A DNA stretch of 64,000 bases from Pseudobdellovibrionaceae bacterium. Its GTDB lineage: Bacteria > Bdellovibrionota > Bdellovibrionia > Bdellovibrionales > UBA1609. Position numbers and translations under genes: made by a program. The stretch spans positions 1-64,000 of the forward strand of contig CANEZP010000019.1 of NCBI GenBank assembly GCA_947444305.1, in the 5' to 3' direction. Below the pieces are notes generated by a model that was not told where the DNA came from, did no database searches, and saw nothing but the letters and a program-made list of their open reading frames with translations. The first letter of the stretch is position 1. The number at the start of each line of letters is the position of its first letter. This document shows positions 37,477 through 57,622 of this stretch, one piece after another.

Positions 37477-37636
37477 GACTGTTCTCCCTTTGTCGTTGCG
37501 AAGGCAAAGCCGTACCTACTCAGCTTGGTTTCACGAAAAATTTCGTAACCCCGCTGCCCGCTGCAACATTGATTATTAAGTTTTGTTTCTCGTTCGCAGT
37601 GCTAGACGTCTTGGTCGAGCGCTGCTTACATCAAAC

Positions 37637-37995: not shown

Positions 37996-38829
37996 TTAGC
38001 CGATGAGTTTCAAAGCCGACATGGGCTGTTGATTCGCCTGAGCCAAAACTCCGACCGACGCGTTTTGCAAGATGTTGTTACGCGCTAATTCAGCCGAACT
38101 TTGTGCAACGTCGGTGTCACGGATGCGTGAGTTCGCGGCCGAGAAGTTTTCAACGGCTACGCCGATGTTCTCCGTCGTCGAGATCAAGCGGTTCTGGATG
38201 GCACCCAAGTTAGCGCGGTATCCGTTCACGGTGCGCTGAGCGGTTTCCAAAACTTCCAAAGACTTACGAGCGTCCATTTTATCCGAGAAGTTGAAGTCTT
38301 CAACGCCGAGGCTAGAGACCGTCGCGTCCTGTTGGGAAGCGTCGAAGCCGATGCGATCATTGAAGTCATCGTTGTTGATGTCGATCTGGAACGCGTATTC
38401 TTGTCCCGAACCGTCGAGCAAATTCGTATCGCCCCAACGAGTGGTCTTAGCTACACGTTGCATCTCTGATTTCAATTGTTGAACTTCTTTATCGATGAAG
38501 CCGCGTTCAACGTCACCGACGGTGTCGGAAGAAGCTTGAACACCAAGTTCGCGCATACGGGTCAAGATGTTCGAGATCTCGCCCAAGCCGCCCTCGGAGA
38601 CTTGAACCATCGAGATACCATCGTTGGCGTTACGGCCGGCCTGTTGGTAACCACGGATGGTTGATTTTAATGTTTCACTGATCGACAAACCTGCAGCGTC
38701 ATCGGCTGCTTTGGTGATGCGCGATCCGGTGGATAGCTGCGCGAACGATTTACCGATTTCGCGTGAGCTAGCGGACATTGAACGTTGTGCCGCGATCGAC
38801 GGCAAATTTGTTGAAACTCTGAGACCCAT
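37996..38829 (-). CDS. Flagellin 2
   Basis: 277 aa, closely similar to flagellin 1 (RVSTNLPSIAAQRSM...NNILQNASVGVLAQANQQPMSALKLIG). Confidence 0.97.
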   Translation of the reverse strand: MGLRVSTNLPSIAAQRSMSASSREIGKSFAQLSTGSRITKAADDAAGLSISETLKSTIRGYQQAGRNANDGISMVQVSEGGLGEISNILTRMRELGVQASSDTVGDVERGFIDKEVQQLKSEMQRVAKTTRWGDTNLLDGSGQEYAFQIDINNDDFNDRIGFDASQQDATVSSLGVEDFNFSDKMDARKSLEVLETAQRTVNGYRANLGAIQNRLISTTENIGVAVENFSAANSRIRDTDVAQSSAELARNNILQNASVGVLAQANQQPMSALKLIG

Positions 38830-38930
38830 AGGGTGCTCCTTTATAGTGGTGGGCTTACATTGCCCGGCTCCCTCGACCCGATCCTACTCGGGTACTATTG
38901 AGAAAGCGCTCGCTTCCCTGCGGCTTGGGT

Positions 38931-38946
38931 TGAACACGTTGGAGCA
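38931..38946. repeat. 16-bp inverted repeat copy A (partner at 43018-43033)
   Basis: TGAACACGTTGGAGCA on the plus strand; complementary in mRNA sense to the flagellin 3 leader. Confidence 0.9.
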
Positions 38947-39049
38947 GAAGAGAAGTATCCGGCAGGAGTTCAAACGAGGATTCCGAAGTTCAGTCACGTT
39001 CTTCAGATCTCTAGTCCCGCAAACCCAATCCACTGCTTGCATGACTAGC

Positions 39050-39076
39050 TTTTCGGCCGGGTCGAGGTGAACTAAA
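39050..39076 (-). promoter_or_regulatory. Candidate sigma28-type promoter of flagellin 2
   Basis: Minus strand TTTA-N15-GCCGAAAA; same upstream block CTAAAGTCGnGTCGAGT (plus sense) as flagellin 1. Confidence 0.45.
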
Positions 39077-39224
39077 GTCGAGTCGAGTATAACTAGACCA
39101 TCGTCTCGTACGAACTAGACTTTAGTTGAGGGATTTGGCGTGAAATCGCCGGAGGATGATGACGTAACGTGTTCTCGACTAGATCGGGCTTAGGTCTGAC
39201 GGACCAAAGCCCCAGTATATTAGG

Positions 39225-39917
39225 CTATTGTTTGAGGCGCGCGATCGTTCGCGAGAAACCTTCGCGGGCCGCTTTCGCCAATTCAATCTGTCCTTCAAGA
39301 TCTTGCGCGTGAATCATCGTCGACTGCAGCGTCGTTTGCCGGCGTTCCATGTCGGCGTCGCTCAAGGCTTCACGGGTGCGCAATTTCTCACCGCTCTTCA
39401 CGTAGGTTTCCGCGATGCTCTTCGCCGTACCGGCAAGCTCTAGGGATTTCGTTAGCGTTTGGATCTCGAGGTCTACGCCTTCAAGCATGAGCTGTGCCTG
39501 CGCGAGCCGGTGGTCCTGGCCGGGGTTGCCCTCTTCCACTACGCGGAGCGCGTGATATTGCGCGGTCATCTTATATTTAGAAACATCGATCGGCAGATTG
39601 ATCATGTCGACTTCGAGAGTGCGATACTCAAAATAAATCATGCTGAACTTAGATTCGGTGATGGTGCCCGACGTGCGGAGTTGTTTACTGCGCTCAAGAT
39701 CGCGCTTGGCTTGTTCGAAACGGAGTTGCGTCATTTTCAGTTTACTCTGCGCCTTTGACCATTGCGACAAAGCGAGCACCTGCTGAAATTCTTTGTCGAG
39801 CGATTCGCTGGTCACGACCTGTTGGTCGCCCGCGTGCACAATTTTAAATGAGGCCGAATCCTCGGCGGCCATGGCCAACACCGGCATGAGACAAAGAGCC
39901 GTGAAAAATAGCTTCAT
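39225..39917 (-). CDS. Secreted coiled-coil protein
   Basis: Signal peptide MKLFFTALCLMPVLAMA; heptad-rich helical remainder. Confidence 0.65.
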   Translation of the reverse strand: MKLFFTALCLMPVLAMAAEDSASFKIVHAGDQQVVTSESLDKEFQQVLALSQWSKAQSKLKMTQLRFEQAKRDLERSKQLRTSGTITESKFSMIYFEYRTLEVDMINLPIDVSKYKMTAQYHALRVVEEGNPGQDHRLAQAQLMLEGVDLEIQTLTKSLELAGTAKSIAETYVKSGEKLRTREALSDADMERRQTTLQSTMIHAQDLEGQIELAKAAREGFSRTIARLKQ

Positions 39918-40227
39918 GAAATGTCACTCCTACATATGAAGGACGGCTGAGATACGGTACCGCCCATGATTTGTTGTTTGCCGTTTCGATTTGCACTTGC
40001 CGTGCCCGCGGTCGCGCCGCGTTCCCGCGACAAACCGTTGAGTGATGTTCGGGCTTCATTTGCGAGCCGTGTCGTGAACTTACGAGTTTAGGAATTGAGT
40101 TGCGCCTTCTTTGCGCCTCCCATTACGATCACGCCATTAGCGTTTCCCTTGACAGTTTTACCGCCAGGCCACAATGCTTTTCGGCGAAACCCAATTCAAT
40201 CATTCCCCTGATCGGGAGAGGTAAACC

Positions 40228-40716
40228 ATGATCCAACGTTCTGCCAAACAAGTCTTCACCGCGCTCATCGCCATGTCGTTCTTCATCGGCGCGTGCTCCA
40301 CTCACAAAGGAAATTTTAGCTACTCGGAATTCAAATCGGAAATGCCGATCAAAGCCGGCAGCTACGACGGTGAAGAACTGGGCGCGATCGAAGGTTCGCA
40401 AGGTGGTTTCGTTTGGACGTCGTGTAACGAACAATCGCGCGAAGCGGTTCAAGATCTGATCTCGAACGCACGTGCAAAAGGTGCGAACGCGATCGGGAAC
40501 ATCAAATGGCGCGCCGACGGCACCTCGGACCCCACTTGCAAAAAATCATGGGGCTTCGTCTTGATCTGGCCGTTCTTGTTCACTCCCCTGTTCGCTAGCT
40601 CGCACGCCGACGCCACGGCCTACAAAATCTCGGGTAAAAAAGCCGGCCTCTTCATGTTGCCGTCCGACAAGTCCGGCGACGCCGCCTTGATCACCGAAAT
40701 CCTCGCCGCACGCTAA
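40228..40716 (+). CDS. Small lipoprotein
   Basis: FFIGACSTHKG lipobox; C-terminal hydrophobic stretch WGFVLIWPFLFTPLFASS. Confidence 0.7.
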   Translation: MIQRSAKQVFTALIAMSFFIGACSTHKGNFSYSEFKSEMPIKAGSYDGEELGAIEGSQGGFVWTSCNEQSREAVQDLISNARAKGANAIGNIKWRADGTSDPTCKKSWGFVLIWPFLFTPLFASSHADATAYKISGKKAGLFMLPSDKSGDAALITEILAAR

Positions 40717-40850
40717 AAGGCGCTCCCCACTCCCGGGGGCGCCCCCCACTCCCAGAAGTGGGGACCCTCTGGGAATATTCTGGCCCTAGCCGTGCATTGT
40801 TGTTGAGGTAAGTTTCCCAACGAACATAAACGCGTCACCCGCCAGGGCTT

Positions 40851-41780
40851 ATGATAAGAATTTACATTCTCGCGCTGAATTTCTGCATCCTTGCCGGCTT
40901 CGCAATCCCTGCGCGGGCCGATCGCAATAAACATAGTTGCCAGTTCGATTTGTTCAAAACCGCGGCCGTAAAACCGGCACCGGCTTCGCCTCCGCGTTTG
41001 AAACCATCCGAGTTCTTCGCCGACTTCCCCGCCCTGCAACGAAAAATTTGGTCCCACGAGTCGGCCGGTGAGAATGACCCCGCCACCTACCTGCGCCGGA
41101 TACTCGAAACGCAATTGATCATCAGTCGCTTAAAAGCTCCGGCCGCAAACTTCGGGCGCAATACGCTTTTCACGACCTCCGGCAAATCACTTCTGCTTTA
41201 CCTTCCCGAAGCCGCCGGCCGCCTTGAATCCGCCGCCTACGCATTCAACGAAAGCCTTGGCCGGCCGGTAAGGATTCCGACGACGGTCAATTACCTAAAG
41301 GGAGCGGTCCAAGTATGGATATTTGACGATGCCGAGGACGAAATGCTTTCGGCAGAAGAAGATCGCCTGGTCACCGACGCGGTCGCGACGGACGCGGATC
41401 TTGCGCTATTTAATTTTTTGGTTTCGATCGCGCCCGAACATGCCGTGCCCGAACATGCGCAAAAGGCCGTGCTCGATCCCGGGGCCGGTTTAGTTGTTTC
41501 AAACTTTGCCGGTGGATTTCGGTATTCCGTACGCCATTTTTTCCCCCACGTGAAAAACGTAAAAGACGTGGCGGACCTTCTTCGTGGTCAGCTGAAAAAT
41601 GCGAAGTTTGATTGGGTTTCGGCCATGAATCGCCTGGATTTGGATTTGAAATTAGAGAATGTAAACACCCTCGCGGGGCGCAATCTTAACGCGACCGAAG
41701 CGCGAGATTTAGGCGCACGGCTTTGCCTGTTGAAAGCGGTCGTGAACGGCTCAAACATTTCAGACTGCCCGTTTCTTTAA
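40851..41780 (+). CDS. Secreted hypothetical protein
   Basis: MIRIYILALNFCILAGFAIPARA signal peptide; 309 aa. Confidence 0.65.
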   Translation: MIRIYILALNFCILAGFAIPARADRNKHSCQFDLFKTAAVKPAPASPPRLKPSEFFADFPALQRKIWSHESAGENDPATYLRRILETQLIISRLKAPAANFGRNTLFTTSGKSLLLYLPEAAGRLESAAYAFNESLGRPVRIPTTVNYLKGAVQVWIFDDAEDEMLSAEEDRLVTDAVATDADLALFNFLVSIAPEHAVPEHAQKAVLDPGAGLVVSNFAGGFRYSVRHFFPHVKNVKDVADLLRGQLKNAKFDWVSAMNRLDLDLKLENVNTLAGRNLNATEARDLGARLCLLKAVVNGSNISDCPFL

Positions 41781-41786
41781 GCTTAT

Positions 41787-41820
41787 AAAAAAACCCCGGG
41801 ACATGTGGGATGTCCCAGGG
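41787..41820 (-). terminator. Terminator of flagellin 3
   Basis: Minus strand CCTGGGACAT-CCCAC-ATGTCCCGGGG followed by T7. Confidence 0.85.
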
Positions 41821-41971
41821 CGGGCTTAAGGAGACCAAGTGTCTGTGGGCGTTGGTCCCCAAACTTAGAACTCTTTAAAATTCATTTTTTGTATATGTTC
41901 GTAGCGATCCACCGGGCCCCATTCGAAGCCCGCGCGGAATTATTCACTTAGATTGCGTGGCTGACCCGATA

Positions 41972-42799
41972 TTAAATCAGTTTCAAAGCGGCTGAGCCGT
42001 TTTGGTTCGCTTGCGCGAGGACACCGACCGACGCTTGCTGCAAGATTTGCGCAGACGTCATTTCGGCGCTCTCGAAAGCGATGTCGGCATCCGAGATGCG
42101 CGATTTCGCGGCCGAGAGATTCTCGTACTGCACGTCCAAGTTGCTGGTCGTGGTTTGCAAGCGCGATTGAACCGCACCGAAGTCGGCGCGCATCTGACCG
42201 AGTTTCACCAAAGCTTCGTCCACCGACTCGAGCGTCGAGCGGGCGCCGTCTTTGCTGTCGATCGCGATACCGTCAACACCAAGGGTGCTGGTCGTCGCGT
42301 CGGCCGACATTTTGTACTTGATCACGTTTTGCGATTCATCGGCGAAGGGGCCGACGTGGTATTCCATCTCTTCGCCCGAACCGTCGAGCAGCGCTTTGTT
42401 ACCGAAGCGGGTCGACTTGGCGATCCGGTCGGCTTCCGAAGTTAACTGCTGGGCTTCTTGATCCAAGAATGAACGTTCAACGTCACTCACGGTATCCGAA
42501 GCGGATTGAACACCCAATTCGCGCAAACGAATTAAGATGTTTGAGATTTCATTTAGTCCGCCTTCCGACACTTGAATCAACGATTGCGCGTTGTAAGCGT
42601 TGTTGCGGGCCATCTTGATACCGGCGACTTGTCCGCGCAAGTTCTCGGAGATGGCTAATCCGGCGGCGTCGTCCGCGGCCTTGGTGATGCGGCTACCCGA
42701 AGCTAGCGACATTTGCGCATGTTCCATGCGCTGTTGTTGTTTCGTTAAAACTCGTTGCGCCGAAATCGACGCCATATTCGTAGAGATCCTTAAGCCCAT
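41972..42799 (-). CDS. Flagellin 3
   Basis: 275 aa; LRISTNMASISAQRVL...LASGSRITKAADDAAGLAISE; ISDADIAFESAEMTSAQILQQASVGVLAQANQNGSAALKLI. Confidence 0.96.
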   Translation of the reverse strand: MGLRISTNMASISAQRVLTKQQQRMEHAQMSLASGSRITKAADDAAGLAISENLRGQVAGIKMARNNAYNAQSLIQVSEGGLNEISNILIRLRELGVQSASDTVSDVERSFLDQEAQQLTSEADRIAKSTRFGNKALLDGSGEEMEYHVGPFADESQNVIKYKMSADATTSTLGVDGIAIDSKDGARSTLESVDEALVKLGQMRADFGAVQSRLQTTTSNLDVQYENLSAAKSRISDADIAFESAEMTSAQILQQASVGVLAQANQNGSAALKLI

Positions 42800-42985
42800 T
42801 GTGGCCTCCTAAGCCAGTAGCCGAAATCCATTCGACCAACCATAAGCTTCGACCGCCCACATCCCATAATTAGGATGATCGACGAAACTTACAGGACAAC
42901 CCTGTCTGGTTAAATTGTTGTGAAGGAGGCCCCCAGACGGAGAGGGGTGACTGACCCTATCCGTCTGGAGTTTCTGATTCTTCTA

Positions 42986-43006
42986 TTCAGTGACTGCTGA
43001 AATGAA
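42986..43006. repeat. 21-bp inverted repeat copy A (partner at 47227-47247)
   Basis: TTCAGTGACTGCTGAAATGAA on the plus strand. Confidence 0.9.
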
Positions 43007-43017
43007 GTTTCGAGAAG

Positions 43018-43033
43018 TGCTCCAACGTGTTCA
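43018..43033. repeat. 16-bp inverted repeat copy B (partner at 38931-38946)
   Basis: TGCTCCAACGTGTTCA on the plus strand. Confidence 0.9.
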
Positions 43034-43039
43034 GGTAAC

Positions 43040-43066
43040 TTATCGACGAAGGTCCAGTTTCCTTTA
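43040..43066 (-). promoter_or_regulatory. Sigma28-type promoter of flagellin 3
   Basis: Minus strand CTAAAG; TAAA-N15-GTCGATAA, close to the TAAA-N15-GCCGATAA consensus. Confidence 0.65.
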
Positions 43067-46299: not shown

Positions 46300-47130
46300 T
46301 TATCCGTCGAGAAGACGAAGGGCGCGCATCGCCGAACTATTAGCCTGCGCGATGACCGACGTGCCCGCGTGTTGCAGCACTTGCGCTTGCGTCAGTTTCG
46401 AAACTTCTTCGGCCATATCCGCGTCGACAATATGACCACGGGCCGACTCTAGATTCTCGGCCTGCACGCCGAGCGTATCGATCGCGTATTGAAAGCGGCT
46501 TTGTACCGCACCGAAGCCCGCCCGCGCGCCGGCCACGTGCGAAATTGCCGAATCAAGTTCGCTCAAAGTCGAAAGCGCGTTGCTCTGATCGGCGACGTCG
46601 AGCGCATCGATCCCCACATCACTGGAAGTTGTGTTGGCGTCGAGCCTGAACTTAATTACGTTTTCCTCGCCGGCGTAAGGTCCCACTTGAAACTCGAATT
46701 CCTCGTTCGAACCCGTAAGCAATTGCTTTTGCCCGTACCGGGTCGATTTCGCGATCCGGTCGAACTCCGAAGTGAGCTGCTGGAATTCCGTGTCCAGGTA
46801 GCCCCGTTCTTCATCGCCGATCGTGTCGCTCGCGGCGTACACCGCGAGTTCGCGCAGACGCACGAGAATATTGTTCTGTTCGTTAAGCCCGCCCTCGGCG
46901 GTCTGCACCAAACTGGTCGCAGATTCCGCATTAAACTTTGCCTGTTTAGTCCCGCCTATTTGCCCACGCAAACTTTCCGCTATGGCGAAACCCGCGGCGT
47001 CGTCCCCGGCCCGCACGATGCGGCTGCCCGAGGCAATCGTGCCTAGGGATTTTTCGATTTGATCGTTTGCTTTGTTGAGATACCTGGCGGCCTGAATAGT
47101 CGCGGTACTTGATCCGATTTTAAAAGCCAA
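46300..47130 (-). CDS. Flagellin 4 (divergent; TTG start likely)
   Basis: LAFKIGSSTATIQAARYLNKANDQIEKSLGTIASGSRIVRAGDDAAGFAIAESLRG; GGAGGGTG upstream of TTG at 47130; track start is 47163. Confidence 0.93.
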   Translation of the reverse strand: MAFKIGSSTATIQAARYLNKANDQIEKSLGTIASGSRIVRAGDDAAGFAIAESLRGQIGGTKQAKFNAESATSLVQTAEGGLNEQNNILVRLRELAVYAASDTIGDEERGYLDTEFQQLTSEFDRIAKSTRYGQKQLLTGSNEEFEFQVGPYAGEENVIKFRLDANTTSSDVGIDALDVADQSNALSTLSELDSAISHVAGARAGFGAVQSRFQYAIDTLGVQAENLESARGHIVDADMAEEVSKLTQAQVLQHAGTSVIAQANSSAMRALRLLDG

Positions 47131-47226: not shown

Positions 47227-47247
47227 TTCATTTCAGCAGTCACTGAA
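47227..47247. repeat. 21-bp inverted repeat copy B (partner at 42986-43006)
   Basis: TTCATTTCAGCAGTCACTGAA on the plus strand, at the predicted 5' end of flagellin 4 mRNA. Confidence 0.9.
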
Positions 47248-47248
47248 C

Positions 47249-47275
47249 TTATCGTCGCAACGCGTTATAACTGAA
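47249..47275 (-). promoter_or_regulatory. Weak sigma28-like promoter of flagellin 4
   Basis: Minus strand TTCA-N15-GACGATAA; good -10, poor -35. Confidence 0.35.
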
Positions 47276-57391: not shown

Positions 57392-57622
57392 TTACTTAGA
57401 CTTAAGAAGTTCGGCGACCGCTTTTGAGCTGTCGCTGGTCGTGCTTGCCGATTCTTGATTTTGATTTTGAATCGCTAGATAGACTTCTTCACGATGAATC
57501 TTCGTGTCTTTGGGCGCTTCGATACCGAGGCGCACTTGTTTGCCTTTGATCTGCACAACACGAATTTTAATATGATCGTCGATCGCGATGCTTTCGCCGA
57601 GTTTACGCGTAAGGACCAACAT
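57392..57622 (-). CDS. csrA: Carbon storage regulator CsrA
   Basis: MLVLTRKLGESIAIDDHIKIRVVQIKGKQVRLGIEAPKDTKIHREEVY; AAGGAGT RBS. Confidence 0.97.
   Translation of the reverse strand: MLVLTRKLGESIAIDDHIKIRVVQIKGKQVRLGIEAPKDTKIHREEVYLAIQNQNQESASTTSDSSKAVAELLKSK

Follow-up and report, generated by a model that had tools for sequence, protein, structure and literature searches.

How the order and the amount of the flagellins are controlled in multi-flagellin bacteria is an open question; in Bdellovibrio bacteriovorus, the flagellin order along the filament is known, and a report on its control was not found. Here we examine a 64,000-nt stretch of DNA (hereafter, the window), part of a genome of 4.17 Mb from the order Bdellovibrionales; in this window, the mRNA leaders of two flagellin genes, fla2 and fla3, contain complementary 16-nt blocks. 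A first-pass annotation made from the sequence alone had described the 5' end of fla3 mRNA as looking like an antisense module with two heads, one directed at fla2 mRNA and the other at fla4 mRNA. The analysis reported here, based on a comparison with related genomes (labelled by G-numbers), makes it likely that the fla3 leader acts in trans, pairing with the leader of fla2 mRNA and controlling fla2 post-transcriptionally.

Complementarity and covariation of the fla2 and fla3 leaders

The features of the two genes that bear on the pairing are as follows.

37996-38829 (-): fla2 coding region, the fliC2 orthologue (Flagellin_N and Flagellin_C by Pfam), with its start at 38829
38931-38946 (-): fla2 target block, RNA UGCUCCAACGUGUUCA, 102-117 nt before the start codon (exact match and comparative pairing tests)
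38990-38997 (-): fla2 hairpin loop, RNA GUGACUGA, predicted to contact the P3 loop of fla3 (covariation with that loop)
39050-39076 (-): fla2 sigma28-type promoter, TTTAG and then GCCGAAAA (alignment with relatives; an automatic scan picked a different site, and the alignment-based one was used)
41972-42799 (-): fla3 coding region, the B. bacteriovorus fliC1 orthologue (Flagellin_N and Flagellin_C; best match HD100 562,130-562,951), with its start at 42799
42917-42929 (-): 3' strand of the predicted fla3 helix P1, 4-5 bp and weak in the window genome, stronger in relatives (leader folds)
42947-42954 (-): apical loop of the predicted fla3 hairpin P3, RNA UCAGUCAC, contacting the fla2 loop (folding and covariation)
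43018-43033 (-): fla3 5' block, RNA TGAACACGUUGGAGCA, pairing with the fla2 block; its GUUGGAG is also part of helix P1 (sequence match, covariation and folding)
43040-43066 (-): fla3 sigma28-type promoter, TAAAG, 14 nt and GTCGATAA (same architecture upstream of the block in orthologues)

The block TGAACACGTTGGAGCA was found exactly at 38931-38946 on the plus strand and its reverse complement exactly at 43018-43033; as both genes are minus-strand flagellins by Pfam, their mRNAs are complementary, in agreement with the annotation. Its placement of the fla3 block at the predicted 5' end, 11 nt from the fla4-pairing block at 42986-43006, also held, the sigma28 -10 box (43040-43047) lying 6 nt upstream. 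By analogy with mapped starts, which in strain HD100 lie about 8 nt past the -10 box, transcription of fla3 is predicted to begin near 43031, so that about 14 of the 16 block nucleotides would surely be within the RNA.

The length of 16 nt is by itself weak evidence, because the same 64 kb contain one further, unrelated 16-nt inverted match, and a comparison was hence needed; the longest dispersed inverted match in the window is a 21-nt pair between fla3 and fla4. Across the 21 pairs of approximately 300-nt flagellin leaders, about 4e-4 such matches would be expected by chance according to our own arithmetic. A genome-wide search allowing up to two mismatches found the block at only one other site, 24677. 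Within four genomes, the fla3-fla2 and fla4-fla3 links exceeded all other leader pairs except one AT-rich 14-nt match in G013. Since fla2 and fla3 lie on the same strand, 4 kb apart, the arrangement is not that of a cis-encoded antisense RNA, and the Rfam 15 covariance models gave no match at gathering scores in the window, the HD100 locus, or two relatives, and none in the flagellin region at E values up to 1.

Flagellin_N is matched by eight loci in the window genome, of which one gives a weaker match and resembles FlgL; orthologues of fla1 to fla4 are present in relatives, often in the same gene order. In 41 of 42 Bdellovibrionales genomes, including HD100 (fliC1/fliC2), the fla3 5' end was complementary to the fla2 leader. 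Nearly every orthologous fla3 leader opens, about 8 nt past the sigma28 -10 box, with a block such as TGAACACGTTGG, and fla2 carries its complement, with matched fla3/fla2 variants such as AGACACATTGG/CCAATGTGTCT, TGAACAAAACGGGG/CCTCGTTTTGTTCA, GTTACTTGTTGG/CCAACAAGTAAC, and TAAGTAAGTTGGAGC/GCTCCAACTTACTTA. In an alignment-free test on the 42 genomes, the mean pairing energy was -25.2 kcal/mol for cognate and -19.6 kcal/mol for non-cognate leaders; in 100,000 permutations, the cognate mean was never attained.

The aligned blocks gave a consistent picture. Over 31 distinct rows, 91.6% of cells were paired, as against 26-33% (maximum 32.5%) when the blocks were slid against each other, and two-sided changes were observed in 18 of 23 pairs overall and in 15 of the 16 pairs of the long helix. 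Nine consecutive columns (2-10) were paired in all 40 of 40 genomes, and pairing dropped at column 1, approximately the predicted transcription start. When the core columns were mapped onto the fla3 protein tree, 31 compensatory changes were counted, along with 7 one-sided changes that keep the pair and 5 that break it; slid controls on the same tree gave 0-2 compensatory changes. The core contained 13 G-U states versus 3 A-C states. Because five fla2 blocks were anchored from duplex positions, the counts of paired cells and tree events lean towards structure; the permutation test is independent of this anchoring. In genomes fetched afterwards and held out, pairing was kept in 11 of 14 (permutation p ~5e-4), and new matched variants appeared, e.g., GTGATACGTTGG/CCAACGTATCA. 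The comparison in relatives, which the annotation had suggested as a check, thus revealed complementarity maintained by matched changes beyond chance, and RNA pairing under selection is strongly supported, given the compensatory changes, the excess of G-U over A-C states, and the pairing edge at the predicted transcript start.

The HD100 leader RNA and a second contact

In HD100 (G040), fla3 corresponds to the gene at 562,130 (fliC1, Bd0604) and fla2 to that at 564,214 (fliC2, Bd0606); the flagellin gene order agrees with the published locus tags (PMC2791853), and published small-RNA coordinates land sensibly. RNA-seq of this strain identified APsRNA3, a 128-nt RNA at 561,854-561,981 (+) with a FliA promoter, whose level was 14,726 reads per kilobase per million (RPKM) in the attack phase and 77 in the growth phase, i.e., 191-fold up (PMC3627812). 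It was described as an intergenic attack-phase small RNA without target or function, and homology outside B. bacteriovorus was not found (PMC3627812). Its coordinates fall in the fliC1 leader: it starts inside the 5' block (ACGTTGGG), and its end, 148 nt ahead of the fliC1 start codon, lies beyond the P1 strand CTCCAAC and a U-rich run. Because the authors dropped intergenic signal running continuously into a downstream gene (PMC3627812), a separate RNA is implied. The published data therefore support the short, stable RNA that the annotation had proposed to look for at the fla3 5' end, HD100 being the genome for which the discrete RNA is published. APsRNA3 was not found in further open-licence literature. 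The small-RNA table of the same study lists none at the fliC2 leader (PMC3627812), which suggests that fla3 is the acting partner.

Folding predicted that helix P1 (GUUGGAG/CUCCAAC) closes the fla3 leader in most genomes and that the apical loop of hairpin P3 contains CAGUCAC. When fla3 leaders were aligned without guidance and analyzed with RNAalifold, P3 alone was recovered; P1 and P2 are based on pairwise checks and on folds of single sequences. The fla3 leader of G006 is shortened to 68 nt past the -10 box; it keeps the 5' block and P1 and has lost P2 and P3 (L074:1060-1127).

Upstream of the fla2 target block lies GUGACUG, mostly predicted to be unpaired, which is complementary to the P3 loop. 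The two loops covary, namely as CAATCAC/GTGATTG in HD100 and near relatives, G009, and G030, as TAGTCAC/GTGACTA in G007 and G033, and as CGTCAC/GTGACG in G032; moreover, in G007, G009, and G033 the fla2 loop fits P3 and not P2. As the loop helix and the block helix are nested, both can form in one complex. The antisense module thus keeps its outgoing 5' block to fla2, and its second head onto fla2 would be the P3 loop, which the annotation had overlooked.

The link between fla4 and fla3

The corresponding features of the second link are given below.

42986-43006 (-): predicted fla3 hairpin P2, which would receive the fla4 5' end (21-nt exact complement, covarying in 24 genomes)
46300-47130 (-): fla4 coding region, a flagellin by Pfam, with a TTG start at 47130 (start from alignment with relatives)
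47227-47247 (-): fla4 5' end, pairing with fla3 P2 (21-nt complement and covariation)
47249-47275 (-): fla4 sigma28-type promoter, TTCAG, 14 nt and GACGATAA (promoter comparison in orthologues)

Of 24 genomes, 23 show pairing between the fla4 5' end and fla3 P2, with mean cognate and non-cognate energies of -29.9 and -20.2 kcal/mol and none of 100,000 permutations as good; in G025, both sides are totally replaced (GACTATAAACGACCGCCGTGT with ACGGTAGGTCGTTTATAGTC). The controls, comprising fla4-fla2, the fla3 5' end with fla4, reversed fla2, two other fla3 segments, and the fla3 5' end with its own downstream leader, showed no comparable cognate excess (p 0.04-0.81), the lowest value belonging to the fla3 segment from +60 to +86 and the own leader giving no species-specific match (p 0.81). 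The second block of the supposed two-headed module is accordingly a hairpin, most simply read as a receiving site for the fla4 5' end and not as a second outgoing head. A fla4-type gene was not seen in HD100, and the fla3-fla2 link is therefore the more widely held.

Taken together, the two links are best read as a relay from fla4 to fla3 to fla2. Tentatively, this chain could serve, without Hfq, to determine in what order or in what proportions the flagellins enter a segmented filament. On that equally tentative reading, the very 5' end of each flagellin mRNA would serve as the address of the next flagellin.

Proposed mechanism, alternatives and relation to known systems

In the mechanism we propose, the fla3 leader would be transcribed from its sigma28 promoter, and its first ~125 nt would fold into a domain consisting of the closing helix P1 and the hairpins P2 and P3, which can exist as a separate small RNA. 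The P3 loop would dock on the fla2 hairpin loop through 7-8 bp, whereupon the unpaired fla3 5' end would act as a toehold, displacing P1 and pairing with the fla2 leader over 9-16 bp; because the P1 5' strand is shared with the fla2 duplex, docking first and toehold invasion second would be the natural order. In parallel, the fla4 5' end would bind P2. Hfq would not be required: no match to the Hfq family was found in six genomes, including the window genome (97% complete) and HD100, and control genomes gave matches. CsrA was found in all six, csrA lying at 57467-57622 (-) in the window. In several fla2 leaders (38880-38925 in the window, and relatives), the target block is followed by hairpins with GGA in the loop, such as CsrA sites would show.

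The fla3/fliC1 leader RNA may keep fla2/fliC2 output low or late, via duplex-dependent cleavage or leader refolding. FliC1 is abundant, FliC2 is scarce, and the two are adjacent in the filament (PMC2791853), and restraint of fliC2 by the fliC1 leader RNA is for this reason favoured, by a modest degree, positive coupling of the two genes being possible though distinctly less probable. Leader pairing probably helps to set the amount of each flagellin in the filament. The pairing, its covariation, and its conservation are evident in the sequences, and the discrete RNA is published; the order of the steps, the direction, and the sign are what we infer. Simple masking or opening of the ribosome site was not supported by constrained folding: the fla2 target site lies ~65-145 nt upstream of the start codon across genomes and accessibility hardly changes, which makes direct masking unlikely.

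Several observations weigh against regulation of fla2 by fla3. Blocking of the fla2 contact sites in constrained folding changed ribosome-site accessibility by +0.015 on average, and the regulatory sign is a guess from protein amounts. The published HD100 start (561,854) lies ~3 nt downstream of the predicted one and leaves ~6 bp of the HD100 core duplex; the true start is expected upstream because the upstream columns pair in all genomes. Pairing was absent in G011 (possibly a wrong paralogue), G064, G072, and G080, and in family f5 the block is absent from G028 and G035 and present in G085.

Among the alternatives, a reverse direction or mutual control appears rather unlikely and has the most in its favour. 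In the reverse direction, fla2 mRNA would take the P1 5' strand and open the fla3 leader domain, altering small-RNA release or read-through into fla3, or would sponge the fla3 leader RNA. The use of one fla3 strand by both P1 and the fla2 duplex fits this, as does the end of the HD100 RNA just past P1 in a U-rich stretch, where attenuation would place it; however, the U-rich stretch is not conserved in relatives, and of the two genes only fla3 has a reported discrete RNA. The two directions could coexist. Even less probable is co-assembly, in which full-length flagellin mRNAs would be tethered for co-localised translation or shared fate, neither regulating the other. The links do form a chain between partners that are both mRNAs, but the free leader RNA of HD100 would be unnecessary for a tether.

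The blocks might also be oppositely oriented DNA sites of one protein, at which parallel change due to drifting specificity would mimic covariation. This was judged very unlikely, because the genome holds only two close sites and a weaker one, G-U states exceed A-C states, pairing stops where transcription is predicted to begin, the loop-to-loop contact has changes of its own, and the third pair, fla4-fla3, is unrelated in sequence. That the match is a chance inverted repeat, for which the other 16-nt inverted pair in the window might speak, or a by-product of P1 conservation alone has a negligible probability: chance is refuted by the permutations, the covariation, the held-out genomes, and the tree events, and the fla3 5' end has its species-specific match in fla2 and not in its own downstream leader.

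Leader RNAs that act in trans, flagellar small RNAs under sigma28 control, and pairing between mRNAs have all been described before (PMC10578931, PMC9217812); no report of mutually paired flagellin leaders, or of a chain of such links, was found in open-licence literature. APsRNA3 (PMC3627812) is the orthologous element, lying in the fliC1 leader and starting in the 5' block, and this intergenic small RNA reported without target now has a likely one, the fliC2 leader. Like the fla3 leader, Escherichia coli MotR and FliX arise from sigma28-driven flagellar transcripts, the 5' end of motA being the source of MotR, and pair with flagellin mRNA; they tune flagella (PMC10578931). The promoter sequences of the orthologues and the FliA promoter noted for APsRNA3 place the fla3 leader among sigma28-dependent flagellar RNAs. 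MotR and FliX are nevertheless Hfq-dependent and contact fliC mostly within the coding region (PMC10578931), whereas here, where Hfq was not found and action with it is not indicated, one flagellin leader meets the leader of another at two points. In Salmonella, as cited in PMC10578931, the mgtCBR leader RNA likewise affects a flagellin gene in trans; as far as that citation describes it, it differs in being a virulence operon leader with a single link and no chain of flagellin genes. The conserved pairing of an untranslated region with the mRNA of another locus corresponds to mRNA-mRNA riboregulators such as irvA-gbpC, hly-prsA, and vigR-folD, which couple expression in this way, are Gram-positive, and stabilise their targets (PMC9217812); here, paralogous genes are linked serially through their leaders, with covariation across the order. 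The result is mRNA-mRNA pairing conserved by compensatory changes across an order where Hfq was not found, a conserved RNA element with named bases to mutate, and a likely target for an abundant small RNA known since 2013.

Further observations concern the flagellin promoters, leaders, and neighbouring small RNAs. The sigma28 promoter spacers are conserved and differ by flagellin class (CTGGACC in fla3 at 43040-43066, ATAACGC with GCG in fla4 at 47249-47275, and AGACCTCG in fla2 at 39050-39076), a hint that each class may have regulators of its own. The leaders of fla3 and of fla4 both contain a conserved motif resembling CTGTGGGC, for example near 42876 and 47210. In fla1- and fla2-type leaders (38830-38930 and 37477-37580 in the window; fliC2 and fliC5 leaders in HD100), a small hairpin whose GUAGGU loop is conserved, perhaps a protein site, occurs shortly before the ribosome site. 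APsRNA4 (HD100 562,984-563,081; L119:2485-2582) begins ~30 nt past the fliC1 stop codon and looks like a 3' untranslated-region RNA of fliC1, in a layout like that of E. coli FliX. APsRNA1 (HD100 499,375-499,581; L126), located ~5 kb from csrA (504,164), carries many GGA motifs within short hairpins and resembles a CsrA sponge of the CsrB type.

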